Source of the DNA: Halorubrum sp. 48-1-W
GTDB taxonomy: Archaea > Halobacteriota > Halobacteria > Halobacteriales > Haloferacaceae
DNA length: 48,094 nt
Reading direction: 5' to 3'
Assembly: GCF_003287355.1 (NCBI RefSeq)
Contig: NZ_QMIM01000036.1
Coordinates: 1-48,094 of the forward strand
Shown here: piece after piece, positions 24,882 to 31,588 of the stretch
How the letters are laid out: each line of letters begins with the position of its first letter
Position numbering within the stretch: position 1 is the stretch's first letter
Notes under the pieces: generated by a model
The model's input: the letters and a program-made list of their open reading frames with translations, nothing else
Database searches by the model: none
Told to the model about the DNA's origin: nothing
Position numbers and translations under genes: made by a program

Positions 24882-26339
24882 ATGAAATTACCGGGAGGCA
24901 AGCTACAGGTCCTCCTGACGGTGGGGATCGTCCTCCTCGCGGGCTGTGTGGGAGCAGTACCAGGGGAACAGACATCGACAGAACCGGACGCGGGCGACGG
25001 ATCGACGGTCGAAACGGCGAACGGCACCCTCGAAGTCCACTACATCAACGTCGGTCAATCGGTCAGTACGCTCATCGTCGGTCCGGAGGGAGAGACGATG
25101 CTCGTCGATACGGGTCACTACAACGACGACGGCGAGCACATGTTACAGTACCTCCAGCGGCACGATATCACTCGAATCGATCACCTCGTCGCCTCGCACA
25201 ACGACGCGGATCACATCGGCGGAAACGCGGAGGTCATCGACTACTACGAGACGGAAGCGGAGGGGATCGGCGCGATCTACGATCCGGGTATCGCCGCGAC
25301 CACACAGACCTACGACGAGTACCTCGACGCCGTCGAAGAACACGACGTGACGTTGTACGAGACGCGCGAGGGCGACGCGATCTCGTTCGGTGACGTCGAC
25401 GTCGACGTGTTCGGACCACCCGAGCCGTACCTCGAGAACGAAGCGCGCAACGAGAACAGCATCGTGCTCAAGCTCACACACGGAGAGACGAGTTTCCTGC
25501 TCTCCGGCGACGCCGAGGACGATCAAGAAGCGTACCTGATCGACACGTACGGCACGGAGCTACGGTCGACCGTGCTGAAGGCCGGCCATCACGGTTCGTC
25601 GAGCTCGACGAGCGGGCCGTTCATCGACGCGGTAGGGCCGCGGGCGGTCGTCGTTTCGAGTGCGTACGACTCGCAGTACGGACACCCGCACGAGGAGGTC
25701 CTCCAGCGGCTGTCGAATCGGTCCATCCCGACGTACTGGACCGCGACGCACGGCGACGTCGTGTTCGTGACCGACGGGAGCGGCGTCTCCGTACGGACGC
25801 AACGTGACGCACCCACCGACCCGCTCTCGATCCGCGATGGCGACCCGATCGAGCCGGGAACGAGCGACGACGTCGTCGAACGCGCTCGGCTCGGGGGCGA
25901 GCCGGTTACGGGCGATTCCGAGAGTGACAGCGACGAGACCGAGGACGACGGCAACGAGACGAGCGACACGGACGAGGAGAACGAGACGACGTCGACAGAG
26001 GCCGGTGCGGCGCTGGAGGTCGCCACGATCAACGCGGACGCCGAGGGCGACGACCGCGAGAACCTCAACGACGAGTACGTCGTTTTCGAGAACACTGGCG
26101 ACGAGCCGATCGACCTGTCCGGGTGGACCGTGAAAGACGAGGCGGATCAGAGCTACGAGTTCCCGGAGGGGTTCACGCTCGATGCCGGCGAGACGGTGAC
26201 GCTTCGGACCGGAAGCGGCACGGACACCGAGACCGAGCTGTACTGGGAGTCGGGGTCGCCGATATGGAACAACGACGGCGACACAGTGATAGTCTCGAAC
26301 GGAGAGGGGGAACGTATCCTCGAGGCGAGCTACGAATGA
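24882..26339 (+). CDS. Lipoprotein metallo-beta-lactamase (ComEC-like) with C-terminal lamin-tail domain
   Basis: The N-terminus MKLPGGKLQVLLTVGIVLLAGC is a lipoprotein signal with Cys22 as lipidation site. Residues about 48-300 form the ComEC/Rec2-type MBL domain: HYINVGQSVSTLIVGPEG, the metal motif His106-x-Asp108-x-Asp110-His111 (HNDADHIGG), LLSGDAEDD, AGHHGSS and YGHPHEEVL. An acidic linker (about 330-375) leads to a lamin-tail domain (about 383-485: EYVVFENTGDEPIDLSGWTVKD...). Unlike true ComEC it lacks the membrane channel domain. It is outside the cell, tethered to the membrane, and probably cleaves nucleic acids or other phosphodiesters. It is followed by a DUF3006 protein with ATGA overlap. 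Confidence 0.9.
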   Translation: MKLPGGKLQVLLTVGIVLLAGCVGAVPGEQTSTEPDAGDGSTVETANGTLEVHYINVGQSVSTLIVGPEGETMLVDTGHYNDDGEHMLQYLQRHDITRIDHLVASHNDADHIGGNAEVIDYYETEAEGIGAIYDPGIAATTQTYDEYLDAVEEHDVTLYETREGDAISFGDVDVDVFGPPEPYLENEARNENSIVLKLTHGETSFLLSGDAEDDQEAYLIDTYGTELRSTVLKAGHHGSSSSTSGPFIDAVGPRAVVVSSAYDSQYGHPHEEVLQRLSNRSIPTYWTATHGDVVFVTDGSGVSVRTQRDAPTDPLSIRDGDPIEPGTSDDVVERARLGGEPVTGDSESDSDETEDDGNETSDTDEENETTSTEAGAALEVATINADAEGDDRENLNDEYVVFENTGDEPIDLSGWTVKDEADQSYEFPEGFTLDAGETVTLRTGSGTDTETELYWESGSPIWNNDGDTVIVSNGEGERILEASYE

Positions 26340-26632
26340 ACGATATCGAACTTCCGGACGGCGAGTACACCGCGGTCGTCGACAACGCCGAGGACGGGCT
26401 CGCGACCGTGTTCTTCGAACGGGACGGCGAGGAGGTCGGGAACGCGGTTCTGGAGGCGTCACGGCTCCCCTCGGACGCACGGCACGCCGACGCCATCCTC
26501 TCCGTGACGCTCCGCGAGGGGCACATCGAGTCCGCTGTGTACGAACCCGAGCGGACGGCGAGCCGAGCGGAGGCGGCACAGGACCGATTCGACCGGCTCT
26601 CGAAGCGACCGCCGTCCGACGAGGAGGCGTAG
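26336..26632 (+). CDS. DUF3006 domain protein
   Basis: This 98-residue protein has the beta-barrel-like pattern of DUF3006 (YTAVVDNAEDGLATVFFERDGEEVGNAVLEASRLP, then LSVTLREGHIESAVYEPE), ending in a charged helical tail. DUF3006 proteins commonly sit directly beside ComEC-like MBL hydrolases in bacteria and archaea. The start overlaps the MBL stop (ATGA at 26336-26339), so the two are co-translated. No signal peptide is seen, so it would be cytoplasmic while its partner is exported, which makes the linkage puzzling. The role is unknown. Confidence 0.88.
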   Translation: MNDIELPDGEYTAVVDNAEDGLATVFFERDGEEVGNAVLEASRLPSDARHADAILSVTLREGHIESAVYEPERTASRAEAAQDRFDRLSKRPPSDEEA

Positions 26633-26766: not shown

Positions 26767-28953
26767 TCAAAAACTCGCTAACGTCTCGTCGTTCGTCCCA
26801 CTGAGGTACTGCCGGATCTCACTCTCACGCCAGCCGACCGGTGCCAGTACGCTCTCGACGGCGCGCACAGCGGCGTCCTCGTACCACGCAGTGTCGTACC
26901 GCCCTAGGTCCTCAAACGCTAATCGGACTCGCGACGCGCCTCGTGCGTCCGCATCAACGACCACGTACCGCACGATCTGGCCTGGAGCCAGTCTCGCCCC
27001 CTCGATCTGCGCTCGTTTCAATGCGGCGACGGTGAGCGTCTCCATCGAGTAATCATCCACGTCCTTCGAGACCCGGTTGTCGACGACAAGCGCGCTGGGA
27101 TCCACCCTCCCCTCTCGTAACTCACGGAGACGCCGCCGCAGCACGTCACATACCGCCTCGGGCAACCGCGTCTCATCGAACACGCGAAGCGCCTCGCTCT
27201 GGACGTCTTCGACCCACGCCGGCGTTGAGCGCTGTCGCCCTTCGATACCGCGTGTCTTGATCGCGTCGCCGAGTCCTGCCTCGGGATACGTCTCACCACG
27301 GCGCTTTCCGAAGTACCGGGTCAGCGCTCCCGACTCGGAGTTTCGCATCGGGCAGAACGCCACCCAATCGAACGCGCATTCGTACTCCAGCTCGATACCC
27401 GCTTCCTCGCTGATCTCGGCTGTAACCACTTCTAGCGGGCGTTGGTCGCGATCGTCGGCGGGAGTCACCCAAACGGAGTCGACGATGCCGTGTACGACGC
27501 GCCAGCCGGCCTCCTCCAGTGCGGTCTTCGCGTCGAGGAGGATCTCGCGAGCGTAGGCGTTGATCGCTTCGTGACACTCGATACGGCCGAATTTAGCGTT
27601 CGAGAAGCCCTGATACCCGAAGCAGGACACGAGGATCCACTTGATCGCTGTGGAGGCTGCTTCCAGCCGCTCGCGCTCCTCGTCGTCAGCATCGGGAATC
27701 CGCTCTTTGATCTCACTCCGGGCATCGATTAGCGGACCGAGGACCTCCGGCAGGTAGCCGTCTCGATCGCAGATGGAGTAGCCCACCCCCGGCACGTCCT
27801 CGCTGTCACAACACCCGCATCGGACGGTCTCGGGGGAAACGTTGCGAGTCCGGATGATGTTGGGATACAGGGATGCGAAGTCGAGTTCGTGGACGTCCTC
27901 GTGGACGCCGACATCGGGGGCGAACGTCGTCCCCCCCCGATCAGCATCATCGAGCGTCGAGGCCGGTTTGAACAGTTCCGGACGCCACGCTCGCCACGGA
28001 ACGAGTACGTCACGACGCCGAGCCTCGCGGATCTGCATCGCCGTCAAGACCCGTCCGATGGAGGCCCATCCGAGTTCTTGTAGCGGGAGTCCGGAGCGCT
28101 CGACGAGGTCGAGACAGCCCTCCAGCCCGGACTCGTGATAGAAGAACGAGTTGGACTCATCGACGATGGTGCGTCCGGGAACCGTGTACCGGGCAGGAGA
28201 GTGTCCCACGGTGCCGTAGGAGGTGTACGTCGACTCGCCGGCGAGCTTGGTGTAGCCCGGTCGCCGGCCGAACTCGAACTCGACACCGTACGCGTCGGCT
28301 GTCTCGAACAGCAACGGGACCAGGTCCGCGGTCGATAGGACTAGGAGGTCGGGATCGCGTTCGTCGAGAGCCGATCGAACGCCGGAAACGACCTCGTGCG
28401 GTGATGACCCGACCCGGTCGCCGTCGACGGAGAGCTGCGGCAACGACTCGACGCCCGACACGTGGCTCGGGAAGTCGAGGTACAGCGTTCGTAGGTCACG
28501 CACCGATCGGTCGGGGCCGGCCGGCGTGTCCGTTTCGAGGCAGAACCGCAGTTGTCGCGTGAAATCGACGTTGTAACAGGTGTAGGTGTCCGGCTGTCCG
28601 AACTGCCGGACTCGCCCCGCGATCGTCCTGACTGCCTCGATCGACGTAGCGTCGACGCGGAGCAGCGGGCGTGCGTCCGTCCGGAACGTCTGCCGATGTG
28701 CCTCGACGTCGAGTCCAGTGACCGCGTTCTGGCCATCGAGAACGGATCGGAGCTCGCTCAGTGTGTCCGAGAGCCCGTTCCGTGGCGGTGGCGTCGGATC
28801 AGGCCCGCCCGCTCGTCCGTAGAGGTCGCCCGCTGTATCACCCACGAACAGCGTCGGCCGATAGTCCTCGTGAACCTCGCGAGCGACGCCGTCCGGGGTG
28901 AGCGTCCATCGGGCGACGCGACCGTCGCCGAGATGATCCACAGTGAGCGTCAC
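26767..28953 (-). CDS. polB2: Family B DNA polymerase, PolB2 type, with altered active sites
   Basis: The 728-residue protein has the PolB palm motifs in order: motif A HELDFASLYPNII (Asp358), motif B AIKWILVSCFGYQG (Lys438) and motif C HGIVDSVW, where the usual Tyr-Gly-Asp-Thr-Asp-Ser keeps only the second Asp (Asp492). The exonuclease I position reads LYLDFPS (Asp160) without the Glu of the usual Asp-x-Glu, so proofreading is probably absent. A Cys cluster (CGCC, then Cys395) follows motif A and may bind zinc. The start is GTG at 28951-28953, 3 bp after the preceding gene. It is the last gene of an operon with a RecA-like and a coiled-coil protein. Archaeal PolB2 of Sulfolobus is linked to damage tolerance; here that role is inferred from family and operon. 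Confidence 0.88.
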   Translation of the reverse strand: MTLTVDHLGDGRVARWTLTPDGVAREVHEDYRPTLFVGDTAGDLYGRAGGPDPTPPPRNGLSDTLSELRSVLDGQNAVTGLDVEAHRQTFRTDARPLLRVDATSIEAVRTIAGRVRQFGQPDTYTCYNVDFTRQLRFCLETDTPAGPDRSVRDLRTLYLDFPSHVSGVESLPQLSVDGDRVGSSPHEVVSGVRSALDERDPDLLVLSTADLVPLLFETADAYGVEFEFGRRPGYTKLAGESTYTSYGTVGHSPARYTVPGRTIVDESNSFFYHESGLEGCLDLVERSGLPLQELGWASIGRVLTAMQIREARRRDVLVPWRAWRPELFKPASTLDDADRGGTTFAPDVGVHEDVHELDFASLYPNIIRTRNVSPETVRCGCCDSEDVPGVGYSICDRDGYLPEVLGPLIDARSEIKERIPDADDEERERLEAASTAIKWILVSCFGYQGFSNAKFGRIECHEAINAYAREILLDAKTALEEAGWRVVHGIVDSVWVTPADDRDQRPLEVVTAEISEEAGIELEYECAFDWVAFCPMRNSESGALTRYFGKRRGETYPEAGLGDAIKTRGIEGRQRSTPAWVEDVQSEALRVFDETRLPEAVCDVLRRRLRELREGRVDPSALVVDNRVSKDVDDYSMETLTVAALKRAQIEGARLAPGQIVRYVVVDADARGASRVRLAFEDLGRYDTAWYEDAAVRAVESVLAPVGWRESEIRQYLSGTNDETLASF

Positions 28954-28956
28954 GGA

Positions 28957-29214
28957 CTACGCGTCGGCGAGCGATTCGACCTGAGACTCCAGTTCGGCGA
29001 TCCGGCGCTCCTGTTCGAGGGCGATCGCCATCCACACGGGTGCCAACGGGTCCGAGTGGTTGAGATTGCCGGCCGCGTCGGCGTGATCGCGAGCGTAGAC
29101 GAACAAGTGGTCGAATCGGGATCGATCCCTACGGCGTAGTGTTCGTCTGAAGGCGCTCCACTCGTCTTCGATCGCTCCTAACTGGTCTCGATACGTCGGG
29201 TTCGTCCGACCCAT
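28957..29214 (-). CDS. Small coiled-coil protein between RecA-like and PolB2
   Basis: This 85-residue protein reads MGRTNPTYRDQLGAIEDEWS... with basic first half (FRRTLRRRDRSRFDHLFVYARDHADAAG) and a C-terminal coiled-coil-like heptad region (ALEQERRIAELESQVESLADA). The ATG overlaps the stop of the RecA-like gene (TAATG at 29212-29216) and its stop is 3 bp before the PolB2 GTG, so all three are translated together. The family is conserved beside PolB2 in haloarchaea as I recall, but no function is known. By analogy with bacterial mutasomes it may bridge the other two proteins. Confidence 0.85.
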   Translation of the reverse strand: MGRTNPTYRDQLGAIEDEWSAFRRTLRRRDRSRFDHLFVYARDHADAAGNLNHSDPLAPVWMAIALEQERRIAELESQVESLADA

Positions 29215-29912
29215 TACCGCATCCCCGGCGTAGCCGTTGTGCGTTCGACCGTCGACGCCTCGTGCATCCGGGCGCGGTGTTCGAGGACCTCACGCCAGTA
29301 CGCGAGCGTCGTCTGCATCCAACCGTCCTCGGTGTGGTAGACGAGCGTCTCCGTGTCGCCCGAGGCGTCCTCGAAGCGAGGTCCGAAGGGCGTCTTCCGG
29401 CACTGGAGGTGCGTCCTCGCGGACCGGCGGAGCGGCTTCGAGAACTCGTCCTCGCGACACCGCGTCACGATGACCGGTACGCCGTGGACTCGAGCGACAC
29501 GGGCGACCGATGCGATCGCGCGGATGAACATCCGCTTCGCGAGTTCCCCGTCGACGTCGCCGGCGCGGTACGTTCCGTCGAGACCGGTCGCGACGACGAC
29601 CGACGGCGACTCTCGGACGGCCAGCCGGCCGGCCAGCCGATCGAGGAGCGAGGTGTGCTGGTGGGACGTGAACCCGCGAGCCACCTCGATCCGATCGAGC
29701 ACGCGATCGGCCGGTGCGAGCTCGCGGAGGTGGGTCGTGTTCGCTCTGTTCGCGCCGTCGACCCAGAACGCCGGCCCGTCGCTACCGAGAACCCGATCGA
29801 GAAGGAGCGCCTGTACGGGTGTGACTCCGAGTTCGTCGTCGACGTCGACGAGCGTGACGCCCGGCGCGAGTTCCGGGAGATCGGCGGTGGGTCGTCGGGA
29901 ACGAGTGTACAT
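29214..29912 (-). CDS. RecA/RadA-like protein without a Walker A motif (ImuA-like position)
   Basis: A 232-residue protein with a RecA-fold outline: PELAPGVTLVDVDDELG, a region where Walker A should be (GPAFWVDGANRANTTHL), a Walker-B-like strand (SPSVVVATGLDGTY), and RVHGVPVIVTRCRED near the sensor position. The P-loop Gly-x4-Gly-Lys-Thr is missing, so ATP binding is doubtful. The start ATG at 29910-29912 agrees with a TATA-like CCTTTTACA on the minus strand (29935-29943), which lies at about -25. It is the first gene of the PolB2 operon. Bacterial ImuA proteins are also degenerate RecA paralogues located next to DnaE2, which suggests an equivalent role. The match is by arrangement and fold, not by detailed similarity. 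Confidence 0.8.
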   Translation of the reverse strand: MYTRSRRPTADLPELAPGVTLVDVDDELGVTPVQALLLDRVLGSDGPAFWVDGANRANTTHLRELAPADRVLDRIEVARGFTSHQHTSLLDRLAGRLAVRESPSVVVATGLDGTYRAGDVDGELAKRMFIRAIASVARVARVHGVPVIVTRCREDEFSKPLRRSARTHLQCRKTPFGPRFEDASGDTETLVYHTEDGWMQTTLAYWREVLEHRARMHEASTVERTTATPGMR

Positions 29913-29974
29913 GGTAGCGTGGATGGGCAGACGTGTAAAAGGGGTGAGCCATGGACGGACGGTGAAAGTGGAAG

Positions 29975-29995
29975 TGGTATCCACTGTGGAATCCA
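29975..29995 (-). promoter_or_regulatory. Repeated TGG-(T/A)-ATCCA motif upstream of the PolB2 operon
   Basis: On the given strand TGGTATCCA (29975-29983) and TGGAATCCA (29987-29995) are repeated with a 12-bp phase, just upstream of the TATA box of the operon (29935-29943). The first copy also lies in a near-palindrome GTGGTATCCAC. This is the place and form of an operator. The regulator is unknown. Confidence 0.35.
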
Positions 29996-30337: not shown

Positions 30338-31588
30338 TTATTCTTCACAGTTCTCGTTCAGTTCGAACGTCCCACACGTCGCGAGGTCGGTGTACTGCTT
30401 GGTCGTCGCGACCACGTCGCTCACCTCACCGGTCGCTGGGTCGACGGTCCGCCACTCGCCGTCACCCGCGTCGTGTGCCCAGAGGGTCTCGGTATCGTCG
30501 AATGCGAGCTGGCTGAGAACCGCGTAGCTGTCACGGTCACTCTCGCCGGAGACGATGACTTCGTCGTTGGCCGAATCGGCCAGATCGACTTTGAAGAACG
30601 CTCCGTTCACACTGAAGTACAGCACTCCGTTGTCATCAGCAGCGATGTCACCGAACGTGTTGCCGGTGATTGGTAGCGTACGAACGTTCTCCGCCGTCAC
30701 ACTCCCGCTGTCTTCCACGACACTTCCGTCGCTATTCAATTCGACTTTGAACAGGGCGTCGCCGCCTTGCGGAGTGAAGTAGTATGCACCGTCGTAGACC
30801 GTCGCACCTGCGATGTCGCCTCCGCCGGAGATACCGTTGTACACCTTGATCCCGAGACAGCCGTCCTCGTTCATCGTCTTGAGGAGGCCACCTTTTTCGG
30901 CGAAGTACCAGACCTCGGTGGCCGGATCGAACGCGAGTCCATTCGGGTAGTTCGCATCGGAACTGTTGTCCGGAATGTCCCCGACGACGGCTTCGACGAG
31001 CTCGCCTTCATCAGCGTCGTATCGGATACTCCAGATGTCGACTTTGCCCTCTTCGCCTCCAACCCGTGACGTTCCGTACATCGGACAGTCCGGGAACGGC
31101 GTCTCTTCGAGGCAGAACTGGAGGTTGCTGATAGCAGCCGTGTTCCCCCCGTTGTTCTCGAGGCCCGACATATAGACGGTGCCCGGGTCATCCACAGTGT
31201 CACAGTCGCCACCGCCGAAGGCCATCACCGTCGTCGCGACGTATCCGTCCGCCTCCCATTCGACGGAGACTGGTTCGCACTCCTCTCCATCTTTGCTGTC
31301 CCAGTCCGTGATTTCGACGAGTCCAGTGTCCGTCTCCTCCTGGAAATAGCAGTCGGTGATGTTCCCATCCTCATCCGTCTCAGTAACGAACTCGAATTTG
31401 ACGTAGGCATCACCTTCAGTACACTCGAAGGCCTTGTGGCAGGGTTTCCCGCCTCCCTTGGCTGCGGCCACGCCACTGAACGAGACTCCGACAAGCGCTG
31501 TACCAGAGGCCACCCCCGCGCTCTTCAGTACGGTTCGCCGGTTTATGCTCCGCGCTTGTTTGAACTCTTCGTTTGTCATGGTAGTCAC
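30338..31588 (-). CDS. Tat-exported beta-propeller-like protein
   Basis: The N-terminus contains INRRTVLKSAGVASGTALVG, a twin-arginine signal ending before Ala-Ala-Ala-Lys, so the folded protein is exported. The mature part (about 380 residues) is very acidic and has repeated segments of the kind WYFAEKGGLLKTMNEDG, YYFTPQGGDALFKVELN, LYFSVNGAFFKVDLAD and LWAHDAGDGEWRTVDP, spaced about 45 residues apart. This suggests blades of a beta-propeller. Several Cys (PCHKAFEC, DCYFQ, FCLEE, DCPMYG) could pair as disulfides outside the cell. No catalytic residues are recognisable. It is monocistronic, with a TATA-like TTTATATTATC about 90 bp upstream, so it may have a leader. Confidence 0.8.
   Translation of the reverse strand: MTTMTNEEFKQARSINRRTVLKSAGVASGTALVGVSFSGVAAAKGGGKPCHKAFECTEGDAYVKFEFVTETDEDGNITDCYFQEETDTGLVEITDWDSKDGEECEPVSVEWEADGYVATTVMAFGGGDCDTVDDPGTVYMSGLENNGGNTAAISNLQFCLEETPFPDCPMYGTSRVGGEEGKVDIWSIRYDADEGELVEAVVGDIPDNSSDANYPNGLAFDPATEVWYFAEKGGLLKTMNEDGCLGIKVYNGISGGGDIAGATVYDGAYYFTPQGGDALFKVELNSDGSVVEDSGSVTAENVRTLPITGNTFGDIAADDNGVLYFSVNGAFFKVDLADSANDEVIVSGESDRDSYAVLSQLAFDDTETLWAHDAGDGEWRTVDPATGEVSDVVATTKQYTDLATCGTFELNENCEE

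Follow-up and report, generated by a model that had tools for sequence, protein, structure and literature searches.

A probable PolB2 mutasome operon in Halorubrum sp. 48-1-W, with a candidate promoter box and a linked exonuclease in related haloarchaea

Three tightly packed genes of Halorubrum sp. 48-1-W raise the question of whether they form an unrecognised DNA damage system or belong to one that is already known. The window analyzed here, i.e., the whole stretch of 48,094 nucleotides, lies on the contig labelled C22 of a genome of 3.58 Mb in 69 contigs, and the closest named relatives are Halorubrum species (80-87% identity in PolB2). The three genes follow each other on the minus strand in the order iRadA, PPB2, PolB2. 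The first (29214..29912, ATG at 29912, stop codon TAA at 29216-29214) encodes a RadA/Rad51 paralogue of 232 aa, the second (arCOG07300, 28957..29214) an all-helical PolB2 partner of 85 aa whose MGRT arm is encoded at 29214-29203, and the third (26767..28953) a family B DNA polymerase of 728 aa with an inactive exonuclease domain. The final A of the iRadA TAA is the A of the PPB2 ATG (TAATG overlap at 29214), and a spacer of 3 bp (28956-28954) precedes the GTG start of PolB2 at 28953. These coordinates bear out the single translational unit read in the first-pass annotation. Upstream of the operon, a minus-strand gene (30338-31588) encodes a secreted TAT-signal protein with no confident family match. 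Convergent with PolB2, at 24882-26632 on the plus strand, lies a pair encoding a metallo-beta-lactamase/lamin-tail protein and a DUF3006 protein. We rejected this pair as a component of the system, as just 4 of 80 haloarchaeal loci have it close to PolB2 (a similar pair lies near polB2 on pNRC200).

The assignment of the polymerase is clear. PolB2 matches the NCBIfam model NF004418 (PRK05761.1-4) with 953 bits (1e-286, for a cut-off of 692), PF00136 with 83.9 bits, and family B polymerases of the PDB at 2e-72. None of the Pfam exonuclease-domain models matches it, and in an alignment to the Pyrococcus polymerase the Exo I and Exo II residues are missing. Motif A retains D358. The canonical DxD of motif C, aligned to IDTD in the Pyrococcus enzyme, reads I490-V491-D492 (HGIVDS; 27478..27486, minus strand), so that the first aspartate is replaced by Ile490, a loss that is typical, though not universal, for PolB2 mutasomes. 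Across 30 haloarchaeal PolB2 sequences V491, D492 and S493 are invariant and I490 is found in at least 90%. The same 30 sequences share an invariant D338-R339-G340-G341, where D338-R339 (27937..27942, minus strand) corresponds to the published D(K/R) motif, the contact of the PPB2 arm in structural models. The FKPA segment (residues 328-331; 27972-27961, minus strand) falls within the stretch modelled as a RadA-like oligomerisation element; its F is common without being invariant, and only in Halorubrum is A331 typical. Finally, the C-terminus ends in a predicted PIP-like tail (DETLASF; 26770..26790, minus strand), and the putative motif [LIV]xx[FY] is found at the C-terminus in 28 of the 30 sequences.

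The two partners are more divergent. A lone iRadA sequence matches Rad51 weakly, while a profile built from 28 haloarchaeal iRadAs matches RadA structures, including Pyrococcus RadA, at 1.6e-12. The AlphaFold model of iRadA (pLDDT 87.7, pTM 0.83) matches Dmc1, RadA and RAD51 structures in Foldseek at 2.4e-11. The protein lacks the N-terminal helical domain and the Walker A and B residues, and no Walker A GK[TS] occurs in the iRadA alignment, in agreement with its initial description as a degenerate RecA-like protein. PPB2 starts with MGRTNPTYRD; in 26 diverse haloarchaeal homologues M1, G2, R3 and R9 are invariant and T4 is present in at least 90%. It is predicted to be all-helical, matches none of the known-family models, and has no significant relative in the PDB by sequence or fold (best Foldseek E 2.4). 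A resemblance to Avd of diversity-generating retroelements (TM 0.44) was not credible. The degenerate active-site motifs of PolB2 and iRadA could also be those of a decaying, inactive relic, a reading that we regard as very improbable given the open frames, the invariant residues, and a promoter conserved across distant genera.

The gene order, whose conservation the first-pass annotation had proposed to check, is the third line of evidence. We located the three families by iterated profiles in 80 haloarchaeal loci, 75 of which had enough upstream sequence. Of these, 67 carry the three genes on one strand in the order iRadA>PPB2>PolB2 (51 contiguous, 16 with inserts), and the lack of a conserved order that would have spoken against an operon was not what we observed. 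Four loci, all from Haladaptatus, have an arm-less PPB2 and PolB2 with no iRadA, four have PolB2 alone within the available flank, and none of the 75 shows an alternative order. At the level of sequence, the three-gene arrangement is thus not a product of chance, because PolB2 matches NF004418, the iRadA profile matches RadA, and the order is kept in 67 of 75 loci.

To which system, then, does the operon belong? The bacterial ImuA-ImuB-DnaE2 cassette follows a three-gene logic that includes a degenerate RecA-fold protein, and the locus was at first likened to it. The likeness stands as an analogy of this three-gene logic only: the bacterial system uses a C-family polymerase and the Y-like ImuB, neither of which has a homologue at the locus. 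Membership was ruled out, since the polymerase belongs to family B, homologues of DnaE2 and ImuB are absent, and no family model fits the middle protein. Among the proposed parallels, Escherichia coli Pol V (UmuC, UmuD'2 and RecA) comes closest. It also combines a polymerase, a small oligomeric arm protein and a RecA-fold partner; it differs in having a Y-family polymerase, an active RecA and an unrelated small protein.

The best match is a system that has already been described. An operon of PolB2, arCOG07300 and an inactivated RadA was defined by Makarova in 2014, with haloarchaeal members among the examples and with an adjacent arORC2 gene (PMC4104785). Timinskas in 2025 gave the names PPB2 (arCOG07300) and iRadA, took the MGRT arm as a hallmark, and described the D(K/R) motif, a RadA-like docking element and a model of a PolB2-iRadA-(PPB2)3 heteropentamer (PMC11791011). 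The locus has what these archaeal and bacterial mutasomes share, i.e., the three proteins and their order, the MGRT arm, the D(K/R) motif, the lost DxD aspartate, the inactive exonuclease and the absence of Walker motifs. Its PPB2 has the expected size and shape (about 85-90 aa, all-helical, an N-terminal MGRT with R3 and R9), and its iRadA has a Rad51 core fold from which the N-terminal domain and the ATPase residues are absent. Nothing essential differs from the published system: what is particular here are the haloarchaeal sequences, a lineage-specific promoter block and the PIP-like tail of PolB2. Judged by its sequences, the locus is a genuine operon of the PolB2 mutasome, and it is a new member rather than a new system because all the published sequence-level features that we tested are present. 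The first-pass reading of a mutasome-like three-gene operon is therefore supported by family, motif and gene-order features. The kind of system had been recognised correctly, but the operon was not an unrecognised one, having been defined in 2014 (PMC4104785), with PPB2 named in 2025 (PMC11791011). Likewise, the middle protein does appear to be a partner of PolB2, but it is not a missing adaptor, having already been named and modelled (PMC11791011).

We give a probability of about 0.8 to the reading of the locus as a PolB2 lesion-bypass mutasome operon carried on accessory DNA of a Halorubrum species and working as follows. The three proteins would be made in step from a single transcript, to which the observed overlap and conserved promoter block point. 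A PPB2 trimer probably inserts one MGRT arm into the cleft between PolB2 and iRadA, and PolB2 would dock on iRadA through the RadA-like oligomerisation element, as suggested by published models and conserved residues. By homology with Sulfolobus Dpo2, the complex would extend primers whose ends are mismatched opposite lesions and would not proofread, so that cells survive at the price of mutations. In the weakest step of the proposal, damage probably raises transcription through an Orc1/Cdc6-type protein acting on origin-box-like repeats just upstream of the TATA element. Because the first catalytic aspartate is missing, the expectation of polymerase activity rests on the Sulfolobus precedent. 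Dpo2 of Sulfolobus islandicus belongs to the PolB2 family, has IxD in place of DxD, and is an extender without proofreading (PMC8764526, PMC7390963). Despite its IID motif, in which the first aspartate is missing, the Sulfolobus enzyme is an active, exonuclease-free polymerase that extends mismatched and lesion-opposite ends (PMC8764526), and it is damage-inducible and the source of targeted mutagenesis (PMC7390963). It differs in coming from a hyperthermophile and in being regulated by Orc1-2 via ANTTTC. The complex of the source locus most likely acts like Dpo2. In haloarchaea, polB2 is non-essential in Halobacterium NRC-1 (PMC1906834) and could be deleted in Haloferax (PMC7776575); the literature that we found holds these deletions only, in line with the earlier remark that the haloarchaeal version is biochemically uncharacterised. 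Two published Halobacterium UV transcriptome studies do not, as far as we found, name polB2.

The distribution of the operon bears on who benefits from it. Within a genus, PolB2 is patchy and multi-copy and is missing from several related genomes, and at least 80% of the polymerase is encoded in each of 90 plasmid records. The patchy, multi-copy presence, the plasmid records, and the insertions into the loci, IS605 among them, would all suit a plasmid-maintenance or mobile-element module that mainly serves the large plasmids carrying it, comparable to rumAB or mucAB in bacteria. We consider this improbable as a rival to lesion bypass: some copies are chromosomal, and it is compatible with lesion bypass, differing only in who benefits. 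Several loci show how labile the region is. PPB2 and PolB2 are split in L095, L099, L101 and L085 by insertions that include IS605 TnpB and IS1595-type transposase genes. On pNRC200 of Halobacterium NRC-1 (L280, 283084-297228), remnants of PPB2 and of an exonuclease gene lie upstream of polB2, are broken by an IS200/IS605 transposase gene, and are accompanied by ORB-like repeats flanking orc4. Haladaptatus has many MGRT-less PPB2 copies with the same promoter box (L052, L055, L062, L074; L183-L194), and in at least 4 cases the arm-less PPB2 is directly followed by PolB2 with no iRadA.

The upstream region of the operon holds a conserved promoter block of 42 bp (29936..29977, minus strand), which ends about 24 nt before the iRadA ATG and contains tandem hexamers, CACTTCCACTTTCAC (29976-29962) and CATGGCTCACCCCTTTTA (29953-29936). 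Across 20 dereplicated Halorubrum/Halobaculum promoters its conservation is ungapped and does not extend into the sequence just upstream. The source genome has no second exact copy of either segment. Three exact copies of CASTTYCASTTYCACTSCGC, near-identical to the box of the locus, are found elsewhere in it (L216, L217 and L218, on contigs C11, C39 and C50), at least two of them just upstream of a TATA-like stretch. One stands before a zinc-ribbon-like ORF, another 208 nt ahead of an ilvA-like gene and the third before a short ORF; as these have no obvious role in repair, a repair regulon is not shown in this genome.

The box of the source locus differs from the one common in other haloarchaea, most of which have a tandem YGGAA…YGGAARCGNC at the equivalent position. 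The pattern GGAAn3-7GGAA occurs in 19 of 33 dereplicated promoters; shuffled sequences gave 1.0 on average and the reverse strand 2. These counts are not probabilities, since related promoters share ancestry. Scanning 24 genomes for two forms of the box gave 126 sites, versus 24 for reversed-pattern controls. Among 122 distinct sites inspected closely, 44 directly precede iRadA (24), PPB2 (9), Orc1/Cdc6-like (6), PolB2 (4) or exonuclease (1) genes, with one PolB2 and one Orc case doubtful; as iRadA promoters had served to build the pattern, independent evidence comes only from the 18 clear cases that do not involve iRadA. Where inserts separate PolB2 from iRadA-PPB2, it has a box copy of its own (L198, L200, L211), and a near variant precedes polB2 on Halobacterium pNRC200. 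A YGGAA...YGGAARCG box also precedes Orc1/Cdc6-like genes in L176, L179, L197, L236 and L221, which suggests co-regulation.

Both forms recall replication origins. The origin recognition box of Halobacteriaceae is TT[TC]CACC[GCT]GAAAC[GA][AC][GA]G[GT]G[GT] (PMC4164010), and its halves match TTYCAC[CT], the Halorubrum type, and GGAARC[GA][AC], the type of other haloarchaea. Either half-site is present in 23 of 33 dereplicated promoters versus 3.6 in shuffles, with patterns picked after viewing the promoters, so that the resemblance is suggestive rather than blindly tested. Sulfolobus Dpo2 is activated by Orc1-2, a protein that binds ANTTTC (PMC9738581). Given this precedent and the half-site likeness, control of the haloarchaeal operon by an Orc1/Cdc6-type protein is a reasonable hypothesis. 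The likeness to the origin recognition box, together with orc genes near 47 of the 80 loci and the lost catalytic aspartate, could instead point to a role in replication, as floated in 2014, such as alternative initiation, removal of stalled forks or origin regulation, with PolB2 mainly structural. We find this unlikely, more so than a plasmid module: Dpo2 has lost the same aspartate and is a robust polymerase that drives targeted mutagenesis, and the gene is dispensable (PMC1906834) and absent from several related genomes.

A further gene recurs around the PolB2 operon in other haloarchaea. In a second class of PolB2 operons, where PolB2 is about 54% identical, a stand-alone RNase H-fold exonuclease directly follows PPB2. 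It matches PF13482 with 34.5 bits (cut-off 22), and its invariant residues D10, E12, N93, D102, H181 and D185 form the DEDD nuclease pattern. Such genes recur inside or beside PolB2 operons (L099:1624-2262, L080:4061-4702, L059:5052-5714, L104:8121-8756, and others), at varying positions: L059 has the gene between iRadA and PPB2, L104 immediately behind PolB2, and L048 upstream. In a comparison by eye, the exonuclease is within about 100 bp of PPB2 in about 18 of 78 related genomes. Paralogues that are roughly 50% identical are located elsewhere in genomes, and Halorubrum sp. 48-1-W itself has no stand-alone copy. In L232 a copy of the promoter box stands before the exonuclease gene itself. 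The main texts of the two studies that defined the operon (PMC4104785, PMC11791011) do not mention the exonuclease, and we found neither it nor the promoter box described in the papers that we consulted. These two features may be new.

Tentatively, and at somewhat less than even odds, we propose a small haloarchaeal damage regulon keyed by the half-sites just upstream of the TATA element and comprising iRadA-PPB2(-PolB2), split PolB2, solo arm-less PPB2, Orc1/Cdc6 and DEDD exonuclease genes. Its regulator would be of the Orc1/Cdc6 type, a euryarchaeal counterpart of Orc1-2, and the exonuclease could supply the editing that PolB2 has lost in cis. Its linkage to the operon directly poses the question of proofreading in trans by a translesion polymerase. 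The operon confirms the mutasome in a genetically tractable class of Archaea, where the biochemistry in the literature that we found comes only via Sulfolobus Dpo2. If the promoter box is real, it is a concrete candidate for a DNA damage control site in haloarchaea, and would suggest that damage responses are under replication-initiator proteins on either side of the archaeal tree.
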